Below the pieces are notes generated by a model. That model was given only the letters and a program-made list of their open reading frames with translations. It did no database searches and had not been told where the DNA came from. Source: Anaerolineaceae bacterium (GTDB lineage: Bacteria > Chloroflexota > Anaerolineae > Anaerolineales > Anaerolineaceae). From it: 64,000 nt of DNA. Within the stretch, counting starts at the first letter, position 1; each line of letters starts with the position of its first letter. The position numbers and the translations under genes are program-made. Shown here one piece after another: positions 1,745-59,533 of this stretch. The DNA is taken from contig JAJUGU010000004.1 of assembly GCA_029265815.1 (NCBI GenBank), forward strand, positions 124,001-188,000. The letters are read 5' to 3'.

Positions 1745-3562
1745 ATGACACCAGAAGAGCGTCTTTATCAGGAAGTCAAGGATGCACTGACGCAAAATGA
1801 TCTGCCAAAAGCCCGGCAGCTTCTCACGCAGCTCTTAAAAATTAATCGCAGCAATCCTGAATACTGGCTGTGGATGAGCGGTGTCGTTGAAACCCGCAAA
1901 GAACGCAGCATTTGCCTTAAAGAAGCTCTAAAACTTGATCCTGGCAACCTGACAGTGATCCGTGGTCTTCGTCTTCTCGATGAAAACATACCAGACCCCG
2001 AACCCCCACCTGGCATCAGATTTCTAAAACAGGATTGGAAAACAATCCTCGAAAAAGAGGAGCTTAAACCCGCCGCTGAACCTAAAGTCCGGCGCAAGGC
2101 GATCGCCTGGTCCATCCTGGGTGTGATCGCCCTGGCTCTGGTAACAACCGGTATCATCCTGGGTCTGCGCCCAAAAATTAAACCTGGCACAAATACAGTG
2201 CTTAAATTTTCTCTAACCCCGCCCCCCACAGAAACCGTTGTGATCACCCCCTCAGCCACATTCGAAGGTCCGCCCCCTCTCTGGACGCTGCTGGAAGCAA
2301 CATTTACCCCTACCCCGCTCTATGTGGCTACACCCCACAACCTGACCGAAGCGTACCGCGCAGCAATGAAAGCGTATGAGAAAGGTGAGTGGGCAAAAGC
2401 GCTTGAATACTTCAAGCAAGTGCTTGGCACTGAACCCAATTCACCAGATATCCAGTACTACATCGGGGAATCCTTCCGCTTCCTGGAGCAATACAAGAAC
2501 GCTGTCGCCGCGTATGATGCCGCGCTCAAAATCGACCCTGCCTTTGCTCCTGCTTATTTAGGTAAAGCCCGCGTACAGCTTCAAACCAACCCGCCTGATG
2601 CAAATGCGGCTGAAAAGAATCTGAAAAAAGCCGTGGAACTTGATCCTTTGATGCACGAAGCCATTCTGGAACTTGCCAATACCAGCCTCGCACGCGGAGA
2701 TGCTGAAGCCGCTCTAGACTATACCAGCCAGCTTGCCAGCAGCATGCCCCGCTCATCGCTCGTTGAAACGATCCGTGCTCAGGCGTTCTTGCTGCAGGGT
2801 GAGAATAGCCTCGCCTTAGACGCAATCGAAAATGCCAATCGATATGATGTATCTTCATTACCGGTATACAAACTATGGGCTGAGATCCTGCAGGCCAACG
2901 AACGCTACGAAGATTCCCTCAAACCCTTGAATACCTATCTCACATACAGCCACAGTGATGCCGAGACTGACCTCATGCTGGCCAAAGCGCATTTTTCTGC
3001 CGGGAACCTGGAAGAAGCACTCACTGCAGTGAACCATGCGCTTTCCTCTGACAACATGCTGGTTGATGCCCTGGTCATCCGCGGTAATATCTACCTTTAT
3101 CAAGAAGAGATTGATCTGGCTGAAAAAGATTTCGACCGCGCACTAGCCCTGCAGCCTAAATCTTTCGAAGCCAATATTGGTCAGATCCGCATTGCTCTTC
3201 TGCAAGACTACCCCGGACTGGCGTTCGAGTATGTGAAGGTTGCGGTGGAGTTGGCAAAAAGCGACCTTGAGAAAGCAACCGCCCTCTACTGGCGCGCTGT
3301 CTCATTGATCGAACTGGGTGAGACGAATTCCGCAATTCGTGACCTTGAAACTGTTTTAGCGCTTCCTGAAGATGTTTTACCAGATGAACTGCGCAAACAG
3401 GCTGAAGAAGCCTACCTGCCGCTGGTTACCCCAACCCCCAGCCTTACTCCTACAGAAACGGTCACGCCTTCCATTACGCCTACACCCAGCAAAACATCAA
3501 TCGTAACCCTCACTCCAACCCGTACGGCGGCCCGCACGCCAACTCGCACGCCAACTCATTAG
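1745..3562 (+). CDS. tetratricopeptide repeat membrane protein
   Basis: Multiple TPR-like repeats, one TM segment, C-terminal TPTPSLTPTETVTPS-rich tail. Confidence 0.85.
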   Translation: MTPEERLYQEVKDALTQNDLPKARQLLTQLLKINRSNPEYWLWMSGVVETRKERSICLKEALKLDPGNLTVIRGLRLLDENIPDPEPPPGIRFLKQDWKTILEKEELKPAAEPKVRRKAIAWSILGVIALALVTTGIILGLRPKIKPGTNTVLKFSLTPPPTETVVITPSATFEGPPPLWTLLEATFTPTPLYVATPHNLTEAYRAAMKAYEKGEWAKALEYFKQVLGTEPNSPDIQYYIGESFRFLEQYKNAVAAYDAALKIDPAFAPAYLGKARVQLQTNPPDANAAEKNLKKAVELDPLMHEAILELANTSLARGDAEAALDYTSQLASSMPRSSLVETIRAQAFLLQGENSLALDAIENANRYDVSSLPVYKLWAEILQANERYEDSLKPLNTYLTYSHSDAETDLMLAKAHFSAGNLEEALTAVNHALSSDNMLVDALVIRGNIYLYQEEIDLAEKDFDRALALQPKSFEANIGQIRIALLQDYPGLAFEYVKVAVELAKSDLEKATALYWRAVSLIELGETNSAIRDLETVLALPEDVLPDELRKQAEEAYLPLVTPTPSLTPTETVTPSITPTPSKTSIVTLTPTRTAARTPTRTPTH

Positions 3563-31465: not shown

Positions 31466-31516
31466 CCAGTGACTGACCGTTAGCATTGAAGCGTCAATCA
31501 AAATGCGGGAGTGTGT

Positions 31517-32794
31517 ATGTCAAAAAAGGATTTAAAATTTTACGAACTTACGCTCTTCGAGCGTCTGCAGCGTCTGGCGCAGGAAAGTGGAGTCGTACTT
31601 GAAGACCTTAAAGCCCTGAGCGGAAAAGATGGTTTAACCCCAGAACAGGCCGATCACATGGTTGAGAACGCAGTGGGGGTTTTTTCATTGCCGCTGGGAA
31701 TTGCCCGCAATTTTCTCATCAACGGCCGTACCGTGTTGGTTCCCATGGCGGTTGAAGAACCTTCGGTGATCGCTGGAGCATCCTTCATGGCCAAACTTGC
31801 CCGGGCTGGTGGTGGATTCCATGCCAAAGCAGATCCGCCTGAAATGATCGGCCAGCTCCAGCTGCTCGACCTGCCAGACCTCGAAACGGCTAAAAACGCC
31901 CTCGATGCCCACCGCAGCGAATTACTGGAGATGGCCGCTGCCATCGATCCCGTGCTTTCTCGCTTCGGCGGCGGTCCGCGCGATCTGGTGGTGCGTGAAA
32001 TTACCTCATCTCCAATTGGCGCTTTCCTTGTACTCCACCTCATTTACGATGTGCGTGACGCCATGGGCGCAAACGCCATTAACACCGCGCTTGAAAAACT
32101 GGCTCCGCGCGTGGCTGAGATCAGCGGCGGCAGGGTGCATCTGCGCATCCTGTCCAACCTGGCAGACCGGCGGCTGGCGCGCGCCGAATGTACTATCCCT
32201 CTATCTGCTCTGGGGTTCGACGCCTACAGCCCTGAAACCGTGCGCGACGGCATCATTGAAGCCTGGGCTTTTGCCGCCGCAGACCCCTACCGCGCCGCCA
32301 CTCACAACAAAGGAATTATGAACGGTATTGATGCCGTGCTGATCGCCACCGGCAACGACTGGCGCGCTGTGGAAGCTGGCGCACACGCTTACGCTGCAAA
32401 AGACGGAAAATACACCAGCCTCACCCGCTGGGAAAAGGACGAAGAGGGTAACCTTAAAGGCTCATTAGAAATGCCAATGGCTGTGGGGATAATCGGCGGT
32501 GCAACGCGCGTTCACCCTGCAGCGCAAGCCGCCTTAAAGTTAATGAAAGTAAAAACAGCATCCGATCTGGCGGAAATCATTGTTTCGGTCGGACTGGCAC
32601 AAAACCTGGCAGCCCTGCGCGCTCTTGCCACCGAGGGCATCCAGCGCGGCCACATGAGTTTGCACGCGCGCCAGGTGGCGCTTGCCGCAGGAGCCGTTGG
32701 CAGTGAGGTTGACCGCCTGGCTGATCAATTGGTTAAAGAAAAAGCGATCCGCTCTGATCGAGCGATAGAAATACTGAACGAGTGGAGAAAGTAG
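31517..32794 (+). CDS. mvaA: hydroxymethylglutaryl-CoA reductase, class II-type
   Basis: [59 protein letters not shown]. Confidence 0.94.
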
Positions 32795-32799
32795 GATTT

Positions 32800-33879
32800 A
32801 TGGAAAATAAGCAAACCACCAATACGAAACTACTGCGCACCAATCGTAAGACCGGGATCGTTGGTTATGGTGCTTACATCCCCCGTTACCGACTGCCGGG
32901 CAGCGAGGTGGCAATGGTTTGGACGGGTTCTGAAAAGGGTTCGCCGGTAAAAGAAAAAGCCGTTGCCGGTTTGGATGAAGATGTGATCACGATGTCGATC
33001 GAAGCCGCCCGCAACGCACTGCTGCGCGCAGATATCGACCCCTGCGAACTGCGTGCGGTGTGGATCGGATCTGAATCTCATCCTTACGCGGTCAAGCCCA
33101 GCGGCACAGTCGTCGCTGAAGCCATCGGCGCTTCCAACAACATCCAGTCTGGCGACTGGGAATTTGCCTGCAAAGCGGGAAGCGAAGCTATGGTGGCCGC
33201 GGTAGCCATGGTCGGCTCAGGTATGGCCAATTACGCACTGGCTATCGGAATGGACACCGCCCAGGGCAAACCCTCCGATGCCCTTGAATACACCGCCGGC
33301 AGCGGAGGAGCCGCCTATATCATCGGTCCGGCCGAAGAGTCTGTAGCCGAGATCGAGGCATCCTATTCCTTCGTCTCTGACACCCCCGACTTCTGGCGCC
33401 GTCCCGAGCAAAAATACCCCGAACACGGGCAGCGCTTCACCGGCGACCCGGCATATTTCCATCACATTGAATCCGCAGGAAGGACCCTGCTTGAAGAACT
33501 GGGGGCAAAAGCCTCCGATTTCACCTATGCCATTTTTCATCAACCCAACCCAAAATTCCCCATGAAGGCTGGTAAAGACCTGGGATTTACCGAAGAACAG
33601 ATCAAACCAGGTTTGCTCGTGCCCGTCATTGGTAACACCTACGCAGGTTCCTCCCTCGTAGGACTTTCCGCTGTGTTGGATATTGCCAAACCCGGCGACC
33701 GCATCCTGTTGGTTTCATTTGGCTCAGGAGCCGGTTCAGATGCCTTTGCTCTGACCGTGACCGACAGGATCACATCACGCCGCAACAGCGCTCCCACCAC
33801 GGCGGAATATATCGCCCGCCGCACCGAGATCAATTACGCCACCTACACCCGCTTCCGCGGCAAGATCGATATGGGATAA
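32800..33879 (+). CDS. hydroxymethylglutaryl-CoA synthase, archaeal type
   Basis: [28 protein letters not shown] (catalytic Cys), [15 protein letters not shown] (catalytic His). Confidence 0.93.
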
Positions 33880-33889
33880 GGAGGGTTTT

Positions 33890-35056
33890 ATGACCGATGT
33901 CGTGGTTGCGGGAATCGGACAGATCCCGGTCGGAGATCATTACTCCCTCAGTCTGCGCTCGATGGGCGTTCAGGCACTGAACAAAGCGCTGCATGATAGC
34001 GGAGATCTCAAACCTGATGCTCTTTATATTGGTAACCTGCTCGGATCGACCCTTTCGCACCAGGCTAACCTGGGAGCGTTGTTTACAGATTATGCCCGCC
34101 TGGGTCATATTGAAGCCTACACCACCGAAGCTGCCGGAGCTTCCGGCGCAGCCGCGCTGCGTGTGGCTTACCTGGCCATCCTAAGCGGCTATGCAGATAC
34201 CGTTGCCGTGCTGGGTGTCGAAAAATGGAGCGATGTCACCCGCGAAGAAGCAGATGCCTTGCTTTCGCAGGAGTTGGACTACGATTACGAGGCCATCCCA
34301 GGGCTGAACAGCGCAGGTGAAGCCGGGCTGCTGATGCAGCGCTACCTGTACGAATACAATTTACCCAAGGATGCACTTGCAGGTTTTCCAATACAGGCAC
34401 ACGCGAACGCACTCAACAACCCAAACGCTTTATTACGTAAATCCCTTACAGCCGAAACCTATGCCAGCGCACCCATGTTAAGTGACCCACTCAATCTTTA
34501 TGATGGTGCAGCTTACGCCGACGGCGCAGCGGCGCTCATCCTTACCCGGCGCGAACTTCTGCCTAAAAACTTTCCTCACCCGATCGTCAGGCTGCTGGGA
34601 TCAAGTGTCAGCGTGGATGCTCTTTCCTTGCACGACCGCCGTGACCCGCTGGCGTTCAATGCCGTTAAAACTGCGGTAGAGAGCGCTGCCCTCCAGGCAG
34701 GCATCATGCCTGTGTATACAGATGTATTCGAGCTGGATGATTCCTTTTCCATCTACGCTGCTCTTACCCTTGAAGCCTGCGGTTTTGCCGAAAAAGGCAC
34801 CGCCTGGCAGATGGCACGCGACGGACTGCTGGCACCCGGTGCAAAACTGCCAGCCATGACCATGGGCGGTTGCAAGGCGCGCGGCAACCCCATCGGCGCC
34901 AAAGGTGTCTACCAGGCCGTTGAAGCTGTGCAGCAGCTGCGTGGAGCGGCTGGACCAAACCAGGTCAAGAACGCACGCATCGCGCTCACCCTGGCCCTCG
35001 GCGGCCCCGCCTCCACTGCTATCGCGCATGTGTTTGACCGGGTGGAAACAAGGTAG
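33890..35056 (+). CDS. thiolase-like protein (archaeal/SCP2-type fold) lacking canonical catalytic residues
   Basis: Thiolase-superfamily layout, but EAAGASG instead of EAACASG, ELDDSF instead of ExHDxF, GNPIGAKG instead of GHPxGATG. Confidence 0.88.
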   Translation: MTDVVVAGIGQIPVGDHYSLSLRSMGVQALNKALHDSGDLKPDALYIGNLLGSTLSHQANLGALFTDYARLGHIEAYTTEAAGASGAAALRVAYLAILSGYADTVAVLGVEKWSDVTREEADALLSQELDYDYEAIPGLNSAGEAGLLMQRYLYEYNLPKDALAGFPIQAHANALNNPNALLRKSLTAETYASAPMLSDPLNLYDGAAYADGAAALILTRRELLPKNFPHPIVRLLGSSVSVDALSLHDRRDPLAFNAVKTAVESAALQAGIMPVYTDVFELDDSFSIYAALTLEACGFAEKGTAWQMARDGLLAPGAKLPAMTMGGCKARGNPIGAKGVYQAVEAVQQLRGAAGPNQVKNARIALTLALGGPASTAIAHVFDRVETR

Positions 35057-35105
35057 TGTAAAAAGCGTGACACGCAGGTTAAAAAGACTTATGCTTCTGC
35101 TGCAC

Positions 35106-35130
35106 ATAAAACTTGATAGGTTTTGATAGG
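35106..35130 (+). promoter_or_regulatory. mevalonate-cluster upstream motif, copy 2
   Basis: ATAAAACTTGATAGGTTTTGATAGG, upstream of the DUF35 gene; 19/20 match to copy 1. Confidence 0.55.
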
Positions 35131-35187
35131 CTTCACCCCCTACACTTACGCTTGCAAGTTGAATAACTGTAAGGAACGGAGTAAAAA

Positions 35188-35589
35188 ATGGAAAATCCAC
35201 GCCACTGGCGCTTAAACAAACAAAGATATGCCCTCGTGGGTGAAGTCTGCCCCCACTGCGAGGCCAAGATCTTCCCCCCGCGCGACGTCTGCCCGGAATG
35301 CGGCGGCGAAGCCAAAAACCGCTTTGGATTCAGCGGCAAGGGCAAGGTGTTTTCATATACGATCATGCGTGATGCCCCGGCTGGCTACGAACACAACACG
35401 CCCTACACTGTGGCCATCGTTGCCCTCGATGAAGGCCCCATGGTCACCGCTCAGCTCACCGACCTTGGCAGCGAGAAGGTAGAGATCGGCATGCCCGTGG
35501 AAATGGTCACCCGCAAGATCCGCGAAGACGTGGAAAAGAAAGGCATGATCATTTACGGCTATAAGTTCAGGCCGGTGATGCAGGGGTAA
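35188..35589 (+). CDS. DUF35 Zn-ribbon/OB-fold protein (acyl-CoA-associated scaffold)
   Basis: CPHCEAKIFPPRDVCPECGGE rubredoxin-like Zn ribbon followed by OB domain; next to HMGCS/thiolase-like genes. Confidence 0.92.
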   Translation: MENPRHWRLNKQRYALVGEVCPHCEAKIFPPRDVCPECGGEAKNRFGFSGKGKVFSYTIMRDAPAGYEHNTPYTVAIVALDEGPMVTAQLTDLGSEKVEIGMPVEMVTRKIREDVEKKGMIIYGYKFRPVMQG

Positions 35590-35839: not shown

Positions 35840-36184
35840 ATGAAAAAAGAAAACAGTCAGGTAATGCAAATTTCTTTGCTCTATTTCGAGGGCTGCCCAT
35901 CCTGGGAGACCGCCTTACAAAATGTAAAAAAAGTGATTGAAATGGATAAGATTCCAGCGGAGATCCGACTGATCAAAATTGAAACCCCTGAGCAGGCGCA
36001 GCAAGAACGATTTCTTGGCTCCCCTTCTTTTCACCTCAATGAGGTGGATCTATGGCCTGAAGAACGGGATCATTACTCCTTGAGTTGTCGTGTCTATCAA
36101 ACTCCGGAGGGCTATAAAGGCTCTCCTACAATTGAAATGCTGCGCGAACGATTAAGAGAGGCGTTTGGAGAAGCCTCAATATGA
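35840..36184 (+). CDS. thioredoxin-fold small protein
   Basis: ISLLYFEGCPSWETALQNVKKVI. Confidence 0.7.
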   Translation: MKKENSQVMQISLLYFEGCPSWETALQNVKKVIEMDKIPAEIRLIKIETPEQAQQERFLGSPSFHLNEVDLWPEERDHYSLSCRVYQTPEGYKGSPTIEMLRERLREAFGEASI

Positions 36185-37647: not shown

Positions 37648-37676
37648 AACCGCTTTCCCAAAGGAAAGCGGTTTTT
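37648..37676 (+). terminator. intrinsic terminator upstream of the heliorhodopsin gene
   Basis: AACCGCTTTCC-caaa-GGAAAGCGGTT followed by TTT. Confidence 0.75.
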
Positions 37677-37925
37677 AGCGTTTAAATTGAAATTCAAAAT
37701 GAATACGAAATAAAGAAAACCAAATTCCCTGGATTGAGCTGGTTTCCAGATTAATTTAATCAATTTGGGGTGTGGCGCTGGCAAGAGGAAAAAATTCGTT
37801 GAAACAATCAGGGGTGAATCCGGTAGAATCTTTTTATAAACGTGAATGATCTGTAACATCGCAGTTGCGCACAGGTCTGGTAATAAAAAATGGCACTTAT
37901 AACAATCAGAAAAGGAGATGATAAG

Positions 37926-38711
37926 ATGACAGCAGCTTTAGAAGAATTGAATAAAAAGTATGCTGGTCTAAGGCGATTCAATCTCATCATGGGCTTCCTG
38001 CACCTGATTCAAGGCGTCTTCATGATTCTGGTGAGCAACGCCACCACCTACCCGATTTTCACCAATTATCTGAGCTTTGATATCGCCACCCGCTCACTCA
38101 AACCCAACACCCAGCTTTTATATGAACTCCCCTTTGGTCCCGCCGTGGCTTGCTTCTTGCTCATTTCGGCGGTGGCGCACTTCTATCTGTCAACGATTGG
38201 TTATCGGCGTTATGTGGAAAACCTGAAAAAGGGCATGAACCCGGTACGCTTCTATGAGTATGCCCTTAGCTCATCTCTGATGATCGCTTTGATTGGAATG
38301 TTGATCGGCCTCTGGGATCTGGGCGCGCTGATCTTGATCTTCACGCTCAACGCCACGATGAACCTGTTCGGCATCATGATGGAACTGCATAACCAGAACA
38401 CTCAAAAAACAAACTGGACCGCGTTCATTTACGGTTGTATTGCAGGCATTGTGCCCTGGATCGTCATCCTGCTGTATTTCCTCGGCGCAGTAAACTCCGG
38501 CGATGCCAAACCGCCAGCCTTCGTTTATGCCATTGTTCCTACGCTGTTTGTATTCTTCAACATCTTCGCGATCAACATGGTGCTGCAATACAAGAAGATC
38601 GGACCGTGGAAGGATTACCTCTTCGGCGAACGCGTCTACATCATCCTCAGTCTGACGGCCAAAAGCGTTTTGTGCTGGCTGATCTGGACCGGCACACTGG
38701 CACCCGTTTAG
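37926..38711 (+). CDS. heliorhodopsin
   Basis: 261 aa, seven hydrophobic segments; RRFNLIMGFLHLIQG, AVAHFYLST, RFYEYALSSSLMI, MNLFGIMMELHN, WKDYLFGERVYIILSLTAKSVLCW. K246 (Schiff base), E111 (counterion), H26, H85, S115, S242, E153, E235 align in register with known heliorhodopsin pocket residues. Confidence 0.93.
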   Translation: MTAALEELNKKYAGLRRFNLIMGFLHLIQGVFMILVSNATTYPIFTNYLSFDIATRSLKPNTQLLYELPFGPAVACFLLISAVAHFYLSTIGYRRYVENLKKGMNPVRFYEYALSSSLMIALIGMLIGLWDLGALILIFTLNATMNLFGIMMELHNQNTQKTNWTAFIYGCIAGIVPWIVILLYFLGAVNSGDAKPPAFVYAIVPTLFVFFNIFAINMVLQYKKIGPWKDYLFGERVYIILSLTAKSVLCWLIWTGTLAPV

Positions 38712-38884
38712 GGCAAACTCTGCTCGATACCAGATTTCTGGTGCCCTATCGCAATTTTTCTAAAATAACGACACCCTCCTTCACCACGAGGGCGTTCGTT
38801 TCATTTCGCGGCTCGAATTGTATAATCTATAAGTGATCACGTTCTTGTTCTTTCTGAAACCAGGTTAAATCCGCTGGAGTCAAA

Positions 38885-39350: not shown

Positions 39351-39824
39351 ATGACAGAATCTCATATCCAGAATAACTCTCATGATGGACAAACCGAAAA
39401 ACCAATTCCGCTGCAGGTGGGTGCGTTAACGCCGGAACAGATTGCCTTGATTTTTACCCATCTTCCTGTTGATGTAACGTTCGTTGATGAAGGCAATGAT
39501 GTGCAGTTTTATTCCGGCGGCAAGAACCGCATTTTCGAGCGCACCCCCGATATCATCGGGCGCAACGTATTGAATTGCCATCATCCCGACAGCGTGCAGC
39601 TGGTTTTCAAAATCCTTGAGGATTTCCGCGCCGGAACCAGGGACAGGGCTGAATTCTGGATCCAGACTAAACCCACTGATGAGGGCAGCCGCTTCATCCA
39701 TATCCGGTACTTTGCCGTGCGCGACGCTCAGGGCAAGTTCCGCGGGACGCTGGAAGTGACGCAGGATGTCACCGATATCCGCCAGTTACAGGGAGAACGC
39801 CGCCTGCTGGATGAAGCAAAATAA
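39351..39824 (+). CDS. PAS domain protein (DUF438-type PAS)
   Basis: LPVDVTFVDEGNDVQFYSGGKNRIFERTPDIIGRNVLNCHHPDSVQLVFKILEDF. ATG at 39351 (39339 is an upstream alternative). Confidence 0.83.
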   Translation: MTESHIQNNSHDGQTEKPIPLQVGALTPEQIALIFTHLPVDVTFVDEGNDVQFYSGGKNRIFERTPDIIGRNVLNCHHPDSVQLVFKILEDFRAGTRDRAEFWIQTKPTDEGSRFIHIRYFAVRDAQGKFRGTLEVTQDVTDIRQLQGERRLLDEAK

Positions 39825-49085: not shown

Positions 49086-49280
49086 AGATTCATTATACGG
49101 TGTGCATCAAGTAATTTTTTCCACTTAATTTGCTGTTAGCCAGTATAAAATTAATTCTACTATGTTTATCTATAATATCGTGTTATTATTAAGAAAAAGG
49201 TGGCTTACCACGTTTTCAGGCTAGTAACCTTAGACAGGAATCACTACTTTACTGTCACTAATTTTTTAAGGAGGACCCAG

Positions 49281-50927
49281 ATGTTTTGTTATCAGTGCCA
49301 GGAAACGTCTAAAAACCAGGGCTGTGTCGTTGCGGGAGTATGTGGAAAGATGAGCGAAACCGCCAACCTGCAGGATCTGCTGGTGTATATCGCGAAGGGC
49401 GTTGCAGTGCATGGCGAGAAACTGGCTGAGGGCGGCACGGTTGATCGCGAAGCCGGACGGTTCATTGTGAAAGCGCTGTTCACCACCATCACCAACGCTG
49501 CCTGGGACAACACAGCGATTATTAACATGATCAAGGAAGGGCTCACCGTCCGTGAAACCATCAGCCAAAAAGTTGGTGCGGCTGCACCAGGTTTGCTGCC
49601 AGATTGCGCCACATGGTTGCCTGTTGATGATGAAGATATGCTTGCCAAAGCCATGTCAGATGATCTGCGCCTCACAGCCGTTGAAAATGAAGACGAACGT
49701 TCTTTGCGAGAATTGCTCATTGGTGGCTGCAAGGGCATTTCAGCCTATGCCGATCACGCCCTGGTTCTTGGCTATGAAAAAGATGAGATCTACAGCTTTT
49801 TGATGCGCGCCTTGGCTTCTACCACTCGCAGCCTTCCAGTCGACGAAATGATCGCTCTGGTGATGAAGGCTGGCGAGACCGCCGTCACGACGATGGCACT
49901 GCTGGATGAAGCGAACACATCGACCTATGGACATCCCGAAATGACCGAAGTCAACATTGGTGTGCGCAACAACCCCGCAATCCTCATTTCAGGTCACGAC
50001 CTGAAAGATATGGAGGAACTGCTGCGGCAAACGGAGGGAACCGGGGTGGATGTGTATACACATGGTGAAATGCTTCCAGCCAATTCTTACCCGGCATTTA
50101 AGAAATATCGCCACCTTGCCGGCAATTACGGCGGTGCGTGGTGGCAGCAGAATGCTGATTTTGAATCCTTCAACGGTCCTGTGATCCTCACCACCAACTG
50201 TTTGACTCCTGTGAAGCGCGAAAATACATACCTCAACAGGCTCTTTACCACTGGTGTGGTCAGTCATCCGGGCGCAAGACACATTCCAGATAGAGCACCA
50301 GGCGGTGAAAAAGATTTTTCAGAGGTCATCGCACTGGCCAAAACCTGCCCTCCTCCGCAAGAAATCGAATCTGGAACGGTGATTGGCGGGTTTGCCCATA
50401 ATCAGGTGCTGGCGTTGGCAGATAAGATTGTGGATGCAGTGAAATCTGGTGCCATCAAGCGTTTCGTGGTCATGGGCGGCTGCGACGGCCGCCAGCGCTC
50501 GCGCTCATATTACACCGAGGTTGCCAGAAATCTGCCAGCCGATACGGTTATCCTTACCGCGGGCTGTGCCAAGTTCCGCTATAACAAACTTGAACTGGGC
50601 GAGATTGGCGGCATTCCTCGTGTGCTCGATGCCGGTCAGTGTAACGATTCTTATTCTCTGGCAGTGATCGCCCTTAAGTTAAAAGAGGCTTTCGGCTTGC
50701 AGGATATCAACGAACTGCCCATCTCCTTTGATATCGCCTGGTATGAACAGAAAGCAGTGGCTGTGCTGCTGGCACTGTTGTTCCTGGGTGTTAAAGGCAT
50801 TCGCCTGGGACCCACGCTTCCTGCATTTCTCTCACCCAATGTGGCTGCAGTTCTGGTTGAGAAATTTAATATCAAACCAATCGGAAGCGTTGAAGAAGAT
50901 ATCGCGGCGATGATGGTGGGGGAATAA
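49281..50927 (+). CDS. hcp: hydroxylamine reductase (hybrid cluster protein)
   Basis: [23 protein letters not shown] (Cx2Cx8Cx5C), [37 protein letters not shown]. Confidence 0.96.
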
Positions 50928-51288: not shown

Positions 51289-52794
51289 CTACTCGTATTC
51301 AACGATCTGGTTGGCGGCAATAACCCCTGATGCCATCACGGTGGGAACACCGCCACCCGGATGGGTGGAAGCACCTGTCAGGTATAAACCTTTGATCGAC
51401 TTTGATTTTGAAGCAGGTCTGAAGACCACCTGTGCCGTAAGGTCCTGCTGGAAGCAGTAAAACGCTCCGCCAGGATTTCCGAGCCGGCGCTCGAAATCTA
51501 ACGGGGTTGATACCACCATGGTTTTCACATGTTCTTTCAAACCAGGGATGATCTTTTGCGACAGATAGTCGACGAGGCTTTCACTGAATTCTTCCTTAAT
51601 ATCATCCCATGTGCCACTTGCCAGCTTTGACGGCCCCTGGAAATCGAGGGCGACGATATGGTGTCCTTTTGGCGCAAGAGAAGAATCGGTCTTGGTCGGG
51701 CAGCAAATTAAGCCAAACTGTTCCTCGGGCTTTGGCACAATTCCGATGCGATATTTTTCCCACCAAAACTCGTTGATCTCATCGACATCACGCGTAACCA
51801 GCGTGTGGTGGGCATCAAGGGGCGGATCATAATCCACACCCAGGCAAATGTAAGGTGTCGATTTTGAAAGCGCGTAGCTCTTGATGCCTTTTCGAACAAT
51901 TGGCTTGAGGTGCTCTTCACCAATCAGATCGAGATAGAGTTTGCGGGCATTAATGTTTGAAACGACAACATCAGCCTCGATCGTCTCTCCATCGGCGGTA
52001 ACCACACCGGTGACCTTTTTGTTCGCGTCCACCAGCACTTTGGTTACATTGGTGTTCAGCCTTACCTCCATGCCGTGCTGTTCGCCGATGCGCTGAATAG
52101 CCTGCGGGATCTTGATCATACCGCCGCGGGGATAATAGATGCCCTTGTGTTCCATGTAGGGGATAATCGCAAAGATGCCCACCGCCTGCTCGGGCGAGTG
52201 ACCGCAGTAGAAAGATTGATATGCCATGCTCTGACGAACTTTAGGGTTCTTGAAATACTTGCGCAGCACATCGTCATACGTCATCGCGAAGAACGAACCA
52301 AATTTCGTGAGAATCGGAACTTTCTTAAATGACGCCAGCATATCCCCCAGGGTGTTCATCGGCATCATAAAGAAGTCCAGCCCATTCCCTTCAATAAAAG
52401 ACTCGAACTTCTTCGCGTATTGCAAGAAACCTTCCTTATCTTCTTTCGAGATCTTGCCAATCTCTTCTGCGGCTCCCTCCACCGACATGGGGATGGTAAG
52501 ACGCTCTCCATCCGGGAAGATCACCGAGTAGATCGGATCGCATTGAATCAGGTCAACTTCCCTGGCAAAGGTGGTTCCAAGTTGAGCAAAGGCGTGATCG
52601 ATAATGGGGATCATCTCAACCACAGATGCACCAATATCGAATTTATAGCCATCAATCTCGTATGTAGAGCAGCAGCCGCCTACACGGTCATTCTGCTCGA
52701 GAACCAGTACCTTGCGTCCCCTTTTTGAGAGGATAGCACCTGCAGTTAATCCGCCTAATCCAGAACCAATGATGACCACATCGTATTTTGACAT
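51289..52794 (-). CDS. phytoene desaturase/carotenoid isomerase-like FAD oxidoreductase (CrtI family)
   Basis: VVIIGSGLGGLTAGAILSKRGRKVLVLEQNDRVGGCCSTYEIDGYKFDIG ... LTGASTHPGGGVPTVMASGVIAANQI. Confidence 0.87.
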   Translation of the reverse strand: MSKYDVVIIGSGLGGLTAGAILSKRGRKVLVLEQNDRVGGCCSTYEIDGYKFDIGASVVEMIPIIDHAFAQLGTTFAREVDLIQCDPIYSVIFPDGERLTIPMSVEGAAEEIGKISKEDKEGFLQYAKKFESFIEGNGLDFFMMPMNTLGDMLASFKKVPILTKFGSFFAMTYDDVLRKYFKNPKVRQSMAYQSFYCGHSPEQAVGIFAIIPYMEHKGIYYPRGGMIKIPQAIQRIGEQHGMEVRLNTNVTKVLVDANKKVTGVVTADGETIEADVVVSNINARKLYLDLIGEEHLKPIVRKGIKSYALSKSTPYICLGVDYDPPLDAHHTLVTRDVDEINEFWWEKYRIGIVPKPEEQFGLICCPTKTDSSLAPKGHHIVALDFQGPSKLASGTWDDIKEEFSESLVDYLSQKIIPGLKEHVKTMVVSTPLDFERRLGNPGGAFYCFQQDLTAQVVFRPASKSKSIKGLYLTGASTHPGGGVPTVMASGVIAANQIVEYE

Positions 52795-57240: not shown

Positions 57241-57489
57241 ATGCACATGACCCCAACGGAAAAACGAACAACACTGGCCGGGATTTTTGCCGGAGAAAGC
57301 GCCACAATACTGGAGTTCAAAGGTGGTCAGGCGGTTAATAACCGTCTGGCTTCGATGGGATTTACCCCCGGAGCCCGTGTAACCATTGTTCAAAACTTCC
57401 AGAGGGGCCCCTTGATCGTCACCGTGCGTGGCACCCGTGTAGCGCTGGGCCGCGGAGAAGCGGCAAAAATCATTGTTGAGCGGGTTTAG
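57241..57489 (+). CDS. feoA: FeoA family protein
   Basis: VNNRLASMGFTPGARVTIVQNFQRGPLIVTVRGTRVALGRGEAAKIIV. Confidence 0.92.
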   Translation: MHMTPTEKRTTLAGIFAGESATILEFKGGQAVNNRLASMGFTPGARVTIVQNFQRGPLIVTVRGTRVALGRGEAAKIIVERV

Positions 57490-57490
57490 C

Positions 57491-59533
57491 ATGCTGCAAT
57501 TGCACCGTCATCCACACATTCACACCAGACACCACCATCAAATCACCGGCAATGAACCACTCATCGCGCTGGTCGGGCAGCCCAACATGGGTAAATCTAC
57601 TCTGTTTAATCTGCTGACCGGCCTCAATCAGCATGTGGGCAACTGGCCCGGGAAGACGGTGGAACACCGAGAAGGTCATTTTAATTTTATGGGTGGCACA
57701 GTCAGATTGGTCGACCTGCCCGGTACGTACAGTCTGACCGCCAATTCCCCTGAAGAAGTCATTACGCGAGAATTCATTCTGCATGAAAAGCCAGACGTGG
57801 TCGTGGCAGTGGTCAGCGCTGCAAACCTCGAACGAAGCCTGTACCTTGTGGCTGAATTAACCGCATTGAACGCTCCACTGGTGGTGGCATTGAACATGAT
57901 GGATGTCGCTGCGCAAGAAGGCATCCAGGTTGATGCGCATATTCTTGAAGCGGCATTGGGCGTTCCTGTCGTTCCAATGGTTGCCGCAAAGGCCGCAGGG
58001 GTTCACCGGCTGCTAAAAGTTGTCGAAGATGTACTCATCGGCAAGGTCATCCCCTGCCCGAAATCACCCGAAGTCCGTCCCGATCACCAACAAGTGTTGG
58101 ATCACATCCGTTCTCTGATTGCTCAACATGTTCCCGACCCCTACCCGCAGAACTGGGTATCACTCAAATTACTGGAAGGCGATATCGAGGTCACCCGCAT
58201 GATGCGGCAGGCACTGCCTGATGCAGACTGGAACGCTGTGCATGATATCCTGCGCCAGCATGACGATGCTTATATGGCAGTCGCCTCCGGTCGCTACCAG
58301 TGGATCAACCGCCTGCTTTCAGCGGCAATGAGCAGGCCGCGCAAAGGTCAGATTGGTCTCACCGAGCGTCTCGATCGCTGGGCGGTACACCCCTTCTGGG
58401 GGCTGGTCATTCTTGCACTGATCCTGGGGGTTGTTTACGAGCTTACCTTTGCCATCGGCGCGCCCATCCAGGCATGGTTAGATGCACATTTGATCACTCC
58501 GCTTGGCAGCCTGGCAGCGATCGCCCTCAGCACTGCGCCGCTCTGGGTGCGCGGTATGATCGTTGAAGGTCTCATCGGTGGAGTGGGTTCGGTGCTCACC
58601 TTTCTGCCGATTCTTGTAATCTTTTTTGCCGCGTTTGCATTTCTCGAGGATGTGGGCTACATGGCGCGCGCTGCTTATGTGATGGACAGCTTTATGCACA
58701 TCATGGGGCTTCACGGAAAATCTTTCCTGCCGCTCTTCCTCGGCTTTGGTTGTAATGTTCCAGCTGTGCTGGGCACGCGCGTTATCGATTCACGCCCGGC
58801 GCGCCTGGTAACCATCCTGATCGCCCCCTTTGTGCCCTGCACGGCGCGCATGGCGGTCATCGCCTTCATCGCCCCCGCCTTTTTTGGTGAGAAAGCCGTG
58901 TGGGTCTCATGGGGGTTGGTGCTTCTCTCGTTGTCGGTGCTGGTGCTCAGCGGCACACTGCTGAACAAGATTTTCTTCAAAGGCGAACGTTCAGCGTTTA
59001 TTATGGAGATGCCGCTCTATCACGTCCCCAACACACGCACCATCGGGCTTTCAGTCTGGCAGCGTTCGATCTCCTTCGTCCGCAAGGCCGGCACTGCCAT
59101 CCTGGCAATGGCACTGCTGGTCTGGGTGCTTTCGTACCTGCCCAACGGAGACCTCAACACCAGTTACCTGGCGCAGTTTGGTAAGTTCCTCGAACCGGTG
59201 GGCCGGTGGATGGGTTTCGATTGGAGGTTGATGGTATCGCTCATCACCAGCTTCCCCGCAAAAGAGAACATCATTGCCACCCTGGGTGTGCTCTTCGGCA
59301 GTTCCGCCGAAAGCGGATTGGCCGATGTGCTTGCCGCGAACTACTCTACCGCTTCGGCGCTCGCCTTACTCGTGGTCACCGTCCTCTTTATACCCTGCAT
59401 CTCCACAGTCGTGGTTCAGAAGCAAGAAACCCATTCGTGGGGCTGGACGCTTCTGGGTGTCGCTCTGATGCTGGGTCTCTCTCTTGCTGCCGGCGCAGCG
59501 ACCTATCATATCGTGCTTTCCATGGGGTTATAA
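57491..59533 (+). CDS. feoB: ferrous iron transporter B
   Basis: ALVGQPNMGKSTLFNLLTG, VDLPGTYSL, LNMMD; membrane core GFGCNVPAVLGTR. Confidence 0.97.
   Translation: MLQLHRHPHIHTRHHHQITGNEPLIALVGQPNMGKSTLFNLLTGLNQHVGNWPGKTVEHREGHFNFMGGTVRLVDLPGTYSLTANSPEEVITREFILHEKPDVVVAVVSAANLERSLYLVAELTALNAPLVVALNMMDVAAQEGIQVDAHILEAALGVPVVPMVAAKAAGVHRLLKVVEDVLIGKVIPCPKSPEVRPDHQQVLDHIRSLIAQHVPDPYPQNWVSLKLLEGDIEVTRMMRQALPDADWNAVHDILRQHDDAYMAVASGRYQWINRLLSAAMSRPRKGQIGLTERLDRWAVHPFWGLVILALILGVVYELTFAIGAPIQAWLDAHLITPLGSLAAIALSTAPLWVRGMIVEGLIGGVGSVLTFLPILVIFFAAFAFLEDVGYMARAAYVMDSFMHIMGLHGKSFLPLFLGFGCNVPAVLGTRVIDSRPARLVTILIAPFVPCTARMAVIAFIAPAFFGEKAVWVSWGLVLLSLSVLVLSGTLLNKIFFKGERSAFIMEMPLYHVPNTRTIGLSVWQRSISFVRKAGTAILAMALLVWVLSYLPNGDLNTSYLAQFGKFLEPVGRWMGFDWRLMVSLITSFPAKENIIATLGVLFGSSAESGLADVLAANYSTASALALLVVTVLFIPCISTVVVQKQETHSWGWTLLGVALMLGLSLAAGAATYHIVLSMGL

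Follow-up and report, generated by a model that had tools for sequence, protein, structure and literature searches.

A heliorhodopsin in an Anaerolineaceae genome without known retinal synthesis

Introduction

Among described heliorhodopsins (HeRs), the closest to the protein studied here is BcHeR of Bellilinea caldifistulae, likewise from Anaerolineaceae, whose photochemistry has been characterised according to the accounts of Shibukawa et al. (2019, Biochemistry 58:2934, doi 10.1021/acs.biochem.9b00257) given in PMC7807009 and PMC9769723. The two proteins are 81% identical (locus L060) and have identical pockets, and the genome that carries the BcHeR sequence (G202) likewise lacks matches to phytoene synthase, BCD and RPE65 in profile searches; the studied HeR nevertheless sits in another sub-branch of the Anaerolineae HeR tree, and its gene neighbourhood differs. 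The best structural match is TaHeR of Thermoplasmatales archaeon SG8-52-1 (6is6, 7clj, 7u55), with 51% identity over 254 columns, a TM-score of 0.91 and an rmsd of 1.7, although this protein is archaeal and about half of its positions differ. The actinobacterial 48C12 (6su3, 6uh3) is more distant, at about 42% identity and a TM-score of 0.85–0.87, with eight pocket residues in register with ours. Type-1 rhodopsins such as xenorhodopsin 7zn0 have the seven-helix retinal fold in common but match weakly (TM-score 0.61, 12–16% identity) and carry a DxxxK motif in place of the SxxxK formed here by S242 and K246.

HeRs have also been noted in Chloroflexi (PMC8612252, PMC11109279), and these reports, together with BcHeR, agree with the original prediction's statement that the family is known from Chloroflexota. 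The HeR studied here thus adds one heliorhodopsin to a well-sampled branch, in a lineage already explored through BcHeR.

Results

We analysed a 64,000-nucleotide stretch of DNA (the window), which belongs to a genome of 2.58 Mb, 99.4% complete, with a single HeR gene on contig C2. The features of the gene and its immediate flanks are:

37648–37673, no strand given: strong inverted repeat with an 11-pair stem and a 4-nt loop, between the DUF2804 gene and HeR
37909–37925, + strand: putative ribosome-binding site AAAAGGAGATGATAAG, directly 5' of the ATG at 37926, read from the sequence
37926–38711, + strand: heliorhodopsin (HeR) gene, 261 aa, with retinal lysine K246 and counterion E111
38778–38802, + strand: weak terminator-like hairpin of 5 pairs, 3' of HeR, from the terminator scan

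The original prediction of a heliorhodopsin gene at 37926–38711 is borne out by profile searches, in which the product matched Pfam PF18761 (Heliorhodopsin) over the whole model (E=3e-100, 335 bits against a cut-off of 26.7) and the HeR equivalog NCBIfam NF038020 (370 bits against a cut-off of 100, E=4e-111). PF18761 was the sole Pfam family at E<=0.01, and thus no type-1 rhodopsin family could be assigned; the proposed comparison of heliorhodopsin and type-1 profiles came out with a strong match to the former and none to the latter. All six solved-structure sequences matching at E<=0.001 were heliorhodopsins.

An AlphaFold2 model built from 19 homologues (mean pLDDT 78.6) contains seven transmembrane helices, at residues 2–36, 70–89, 106–126, 132–159, 165–190, 200–223 and 231–258, together with the HeR beta-hairpin of the long AB loop at 41–69 (strands 41–52 and 57–69). 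K246 lies inside the last helix, in agreement with the predicted seven-helix protein carrying K246 in TM7, and the SxxxK motif reads S242-L-T-A-K246, with S242 occupying the position of the D in the DxxxK motif of type-1 rhodopsins. Searched with Foldseek, this model returned TaHeR as its top match and type-1 rhodopsins far lower. Judged by its sequence and modelled fold, the gene encodes a true heliorhodopsin.

The open reading frame is uninterrupted. We favour ATG 37926 as its start over ATG 37890 because an AAGGAG ribosome-binding site immediately precedes the former. The terminator scan assigns the upstream inverted repeat to the − strand, and T-rich DNA also follows its + strand copy; the repeat is probably a terminator that parts the DUF2804 and HeR transcription units. 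The hairpin downstream of HeR may be a chance occurrence, as the scan of the region returned 4 terminator-like sites against 1.7 in shuffled sequences. Given the 11-pair repeat upstream and a gap of 173 bp to the next gene downstream, HeR is probably transcribed alone.

The eight pocket residues that the original prediction had placed in the register of 48C12 were all recovered by a phmmer alignment to 6su3: H26, H85, E111 and S115 correspond to H23, H80, E107 and S111, and E153, E235, S242 and K246 to E149, E230, S237 and K241. None of the eight varies among 133 aligned HeRs (102 distinct sequences, as certain genomes are present twice), an alignment in which 65 of the 261 columns are invariant overall. 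HeRs from genomes negative for phytoene synthase (n=34) retain every pocket residue, as do those from positive genomes (n=19); this comparison covered 14 columns, of which 6 were chosen after viewing the alignment, so that the 8 pre-named ones constitute the fair test. Relative to its nearest relatives, the gene has a dN/dS of about 0.05, with dN of 0.07–0.10 and dS of 1.5 or more, that is, near saturation. As read from these alignments, HeR, including its retinal pocket, is under strong selection in the class Anaerolineae.

Across the class, HeR was found in 49 of 396 sampled genomes (12%), and within the family in 33 of 101, fragments counted. In the genus, the studied genome carries an intact gene, as does one other (G475), a third holds a fragment (G457) and five have none. 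The G475 copy (L138) forms a divergent long branch in the HeR tree, apart from the studied HeR; vertical inheritance inside the genus was therefore set aside, and transfer or differential loss may account for the pattern. Elsewhere in the family, the HeR matches of three genomes (G401, G409, G456) contain in-frame stops and that of a fourth (G421) is split. This apparent decay, along with the patchy occurrence in the genus, indicates that HeR is dispensable in certain lineages. HeRs identical to those in records labelled Bellilinea, Anaerolinea, Longilinea and Brevefilum occur in other genomes of the family, which supports placing the organism in Anaerolineaceae. Several loci from genomes of the family (L131, L133–L137) make up a divergent HeR clade, which an exceptionally long branch of 4.5 changes per column sets apart; in a member of the divergent clade, L153, HeR (566–1354, −) and a photolyase gene (2063–3463, −) lie about 0.7 kb apart.

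Retinal supply was assessed by family profile searches of the 99.4% complete genome. Phytoene synthase (SQS_PSY, PF00494) had no match there, while it was found in 7 of 14 control genomes; nor was it present in the seven other genus members examined. The RPE65-type oxygenase (PF03055) was likewise without a match in the genome and found in 2 of the 14 controls. BCD/Brp-Blh (PF15461) matched neither in this genome nor in the control genomes, and the model does recover a genuine family member in another genome of the class (E=1e-68). Among the 49 HeR genomes of the class, phytoene synthase is missing from 27 and a BCD/RPE65 match above the cut-off from 46; part of these genomes are incomplete, which makes single absences uncertain but not the pattern. 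We rejected a link between HeR and carotenoid synthesis, as phytoene synthase showed no association with HeR in the class (22/49 genomes with HeR vs 180/347 without, Fisher p=0.37) or in the family (9/33 vs 21/68, Fisher p=0.82); for retinal-type oxygenases in the class, the figures were 3/49 with HeR vs 11/347 without (p=0.40). There are precedents for retinal auxotrophy: earlier papers discuss organisms with rhodopsins but no known route to retinal among hot-spring Chloroflexi (PMC5459899), Bathyarchaeota that carry HeR (PMC7110647) and bacteria of fresh water (PMC11561045). A small literature sample contained no class-wide tally of HeRs without retinal synthesis.

The wider neighbourhood includes:

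31511–35589, + strand: mevalonate-type cluster with HMG-CoA reductase, archaeal-type HMG-CoA synthase (TIGR00748), thiolase and a ChsH2-type OB-fold protein
35840–36184, + strand: small DF-family (seleno)protein-like gene (NF049942)
49200–50927: hydroxylamine reductase Hcp
51292–52794, − strand: gene resembling CrtI-family carotenoid desaturases (TIGR02734, 326 bits; cut-off 238)
57473–59533: FeoB

The Hcp and FeoB genes confirm that anaerobe-type genes lie nearby, as had been noted. The CrtI-family gene lies 12.6 kb downstream of HeR, in a genome without phytoene synthase. Directly upstream of HeR is the DUF2804 gene, beyond which lie the DF-family gene and the mevalonate cluster; downstream, Pfam assigns DUF2200, a lone PAS-domain protein (39351–39824) and DUF4256. 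DUF2804, DUF2200, PAS, DUF4256, HMG-CoA reductase and HMG-CoA synthase are all missing from about 110 further HeR loci; in this set, the flanks extend no more than 1.5 kb at about 30 loci, and certain genomes are represented twice. Because these flanking genes are absent from the other loci, the neighbourhood names no partner. In the literature, HeR partners are encoded by adjacent genes of the operon, namely glutamine synthetase (PMC9529153), class 2 photolyase (PMC9769723) and an ABC transporter (PMC11109279), none of which adjoins the studied HeR. DUF2804 was dropped as a retinoid-related partner, being found at no other HeR locus and giving a single-sequence model with a mean pLDDT of 30. 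PAS and DUF2200 were set aside as partners for the same lack of recurrence, and a congener holds matching DNA away from its HeR. A conserved Anaerolineae HeR operon was rejected as well: over 80 named loci, the families that recur near HeR include, by raw count, DegV (10 loci, several from close relatives) and DUF2177 (6 loci), and neither lies beside the studied HeR.

Discussion

The product is best read as a putative light-responsive or retinal-linked membrane protein. More specifically, we favour, with a probability of roughly 0.65, a stand-alone photosensory or regulatory HeR with a partner encoded elsewhere and retinal scavenged from neighbours, and no ion-pumping function. The N-terminus of heliorhodopsins faces the cytoplasm, an inverted topology that the studied HeR would share by homology. 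By the same token, all-trans retinal would bind K246 through a protonated Schiff base whose counterion is E111, and green light would drive a slow photocycle that alters the cytoplasmic face, as in characterised HeRs including BcHeR. The cytoplasmic side could then signal to a partner whose gene lies at another place in the genome, with HeR itself probably expressed alone and serving a photosensory or regulatory role rather than that of an ion pump. The retinal would most likely be scavenged from neighbouring organisms, since absent synthesis genes combined with unbroken conservation of the pocket are what scavenging predicts. Against this reading, no retinal importer was identified in our analysis, HeR is patchy and has decayed in a few family relatives, and the CrtI-family desaturase leaves room for an unrecognised retinal-forming enzyme.

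That enzyme is the starting point of an explanation we consider unlikely, in which the organism supplies its own retinal through a pathway not yet recognised and HeR acts as a self-sufficient photosensor of the ordinary type. Besides the desaturase, the mevalonate gene cluster upstream would fit such a pathway, and a bacterium without known retinal genes has been described as having functional rhodopsins (Nakajima et al. 2020, as related in PMC11561045). This is countered by the absence of phytoene synthase from a nearly complete genome and from seven other genus members, and by the many substrates on which members of the CrtI family act. The known retinal-forming oxygenases require oxygen, and the nearby genes look anaerobic. 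It is also quite improbable that HeR regulates the genome's DNA photolyase, in the way that TfHeR regulates the photolyase of its operon. The genome does encode a photolyase (G000:C25, 465 aa, FAD_binding_7), photolyases occur in 24 of the 33 HeR genomes of the family against 36 of the 68 without HeR, and one relative has a divergent HeR and a photolyase on the same strand about 0.7 kb apart. Yet the difference within the family falls short of significance (Fisher p=0.08, uncorrected for relatedness), and the photolyase gene lies on contig C25 and HeR on C2, unlike the operon type. Moreover, the genome's photolyase has a full-length FAD_binding_7 domain, usual for class I photolyases, whereas the published pair uses a class 2 photolyase (PMC9769723).

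A local signalling unit of HeR with the PAS protein or the upstream DUF2804 protein appears very improbable. According to PMC8612252, HeRs of several phyla, Chloroflexi among them, do have PAS and histidine-kinase genes in their vicinity, but neither PAS nor DUF2804 recurs at the 110 other loci, a hairpin separates DUF2804 from HeR, and in the congener the PAS- and DUF2200-matching DNA adjoin each other with HeR on another contig. We find it hardly credible that the protein is a light-driven proton transporter like V2HeR3 of Emiliania huxleyi virus: although V2HeR3 shows that HeRs are capable of proton transport (PMC9448325), the studied HeR is much nearer to BcHeR and TaHeR, and PMC8612252 treats HeRs as sensory, with no ion pumping demonstrated by then.

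The stand-alone, retinal-scavenging HeR that we prefer has its novel side in the cofactor, as HeR is kept under strong selection in many genomes without known retinal synthesis. The question that it raises concerns retinal supply rather than the opsin, and a cultured relative, Bellilinea, exists. A bolder proposal, which we regard as a long shot, is that HeR in fermentative Anaerolineaceae without retinal synthesis reports both light and retinal from oxygen-using neighbours; if so, apo-HeR would be loaded only in a lit, oxic community, and retinal would double as cofactor and external cue.

The comparison of HeR loci yielded several further observations. A DegV-family gene lies at most ten genes from HeR at 10 of 80 named loci (L084, L098, L099, L104, L108, L072, L047, L033, L032 and L038), a raw count that includes four close relatives. 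On visual inspection, HeR loci often seemed to include a TspO-like family, which was discarded because its representative matched nothing in Pfam. Immediately 3' of HeR at L072, a gene at 2075–3382 (+) encodes a MerR regulator with B12-binding domains, a CarH-like architecture, and the sequence cluster to which it belongs was found near HeR at three named loci. HeR also occurs on contigs assigned to three Spirochaetia bins (L071, L094, L100), and the HeRs on contigs assigned to twelve Trueperaceae (Deinococcota) bins (L070, L073, L074, L077–L080, L082, L087, L088, L090 and L095) form one well-supported clade.
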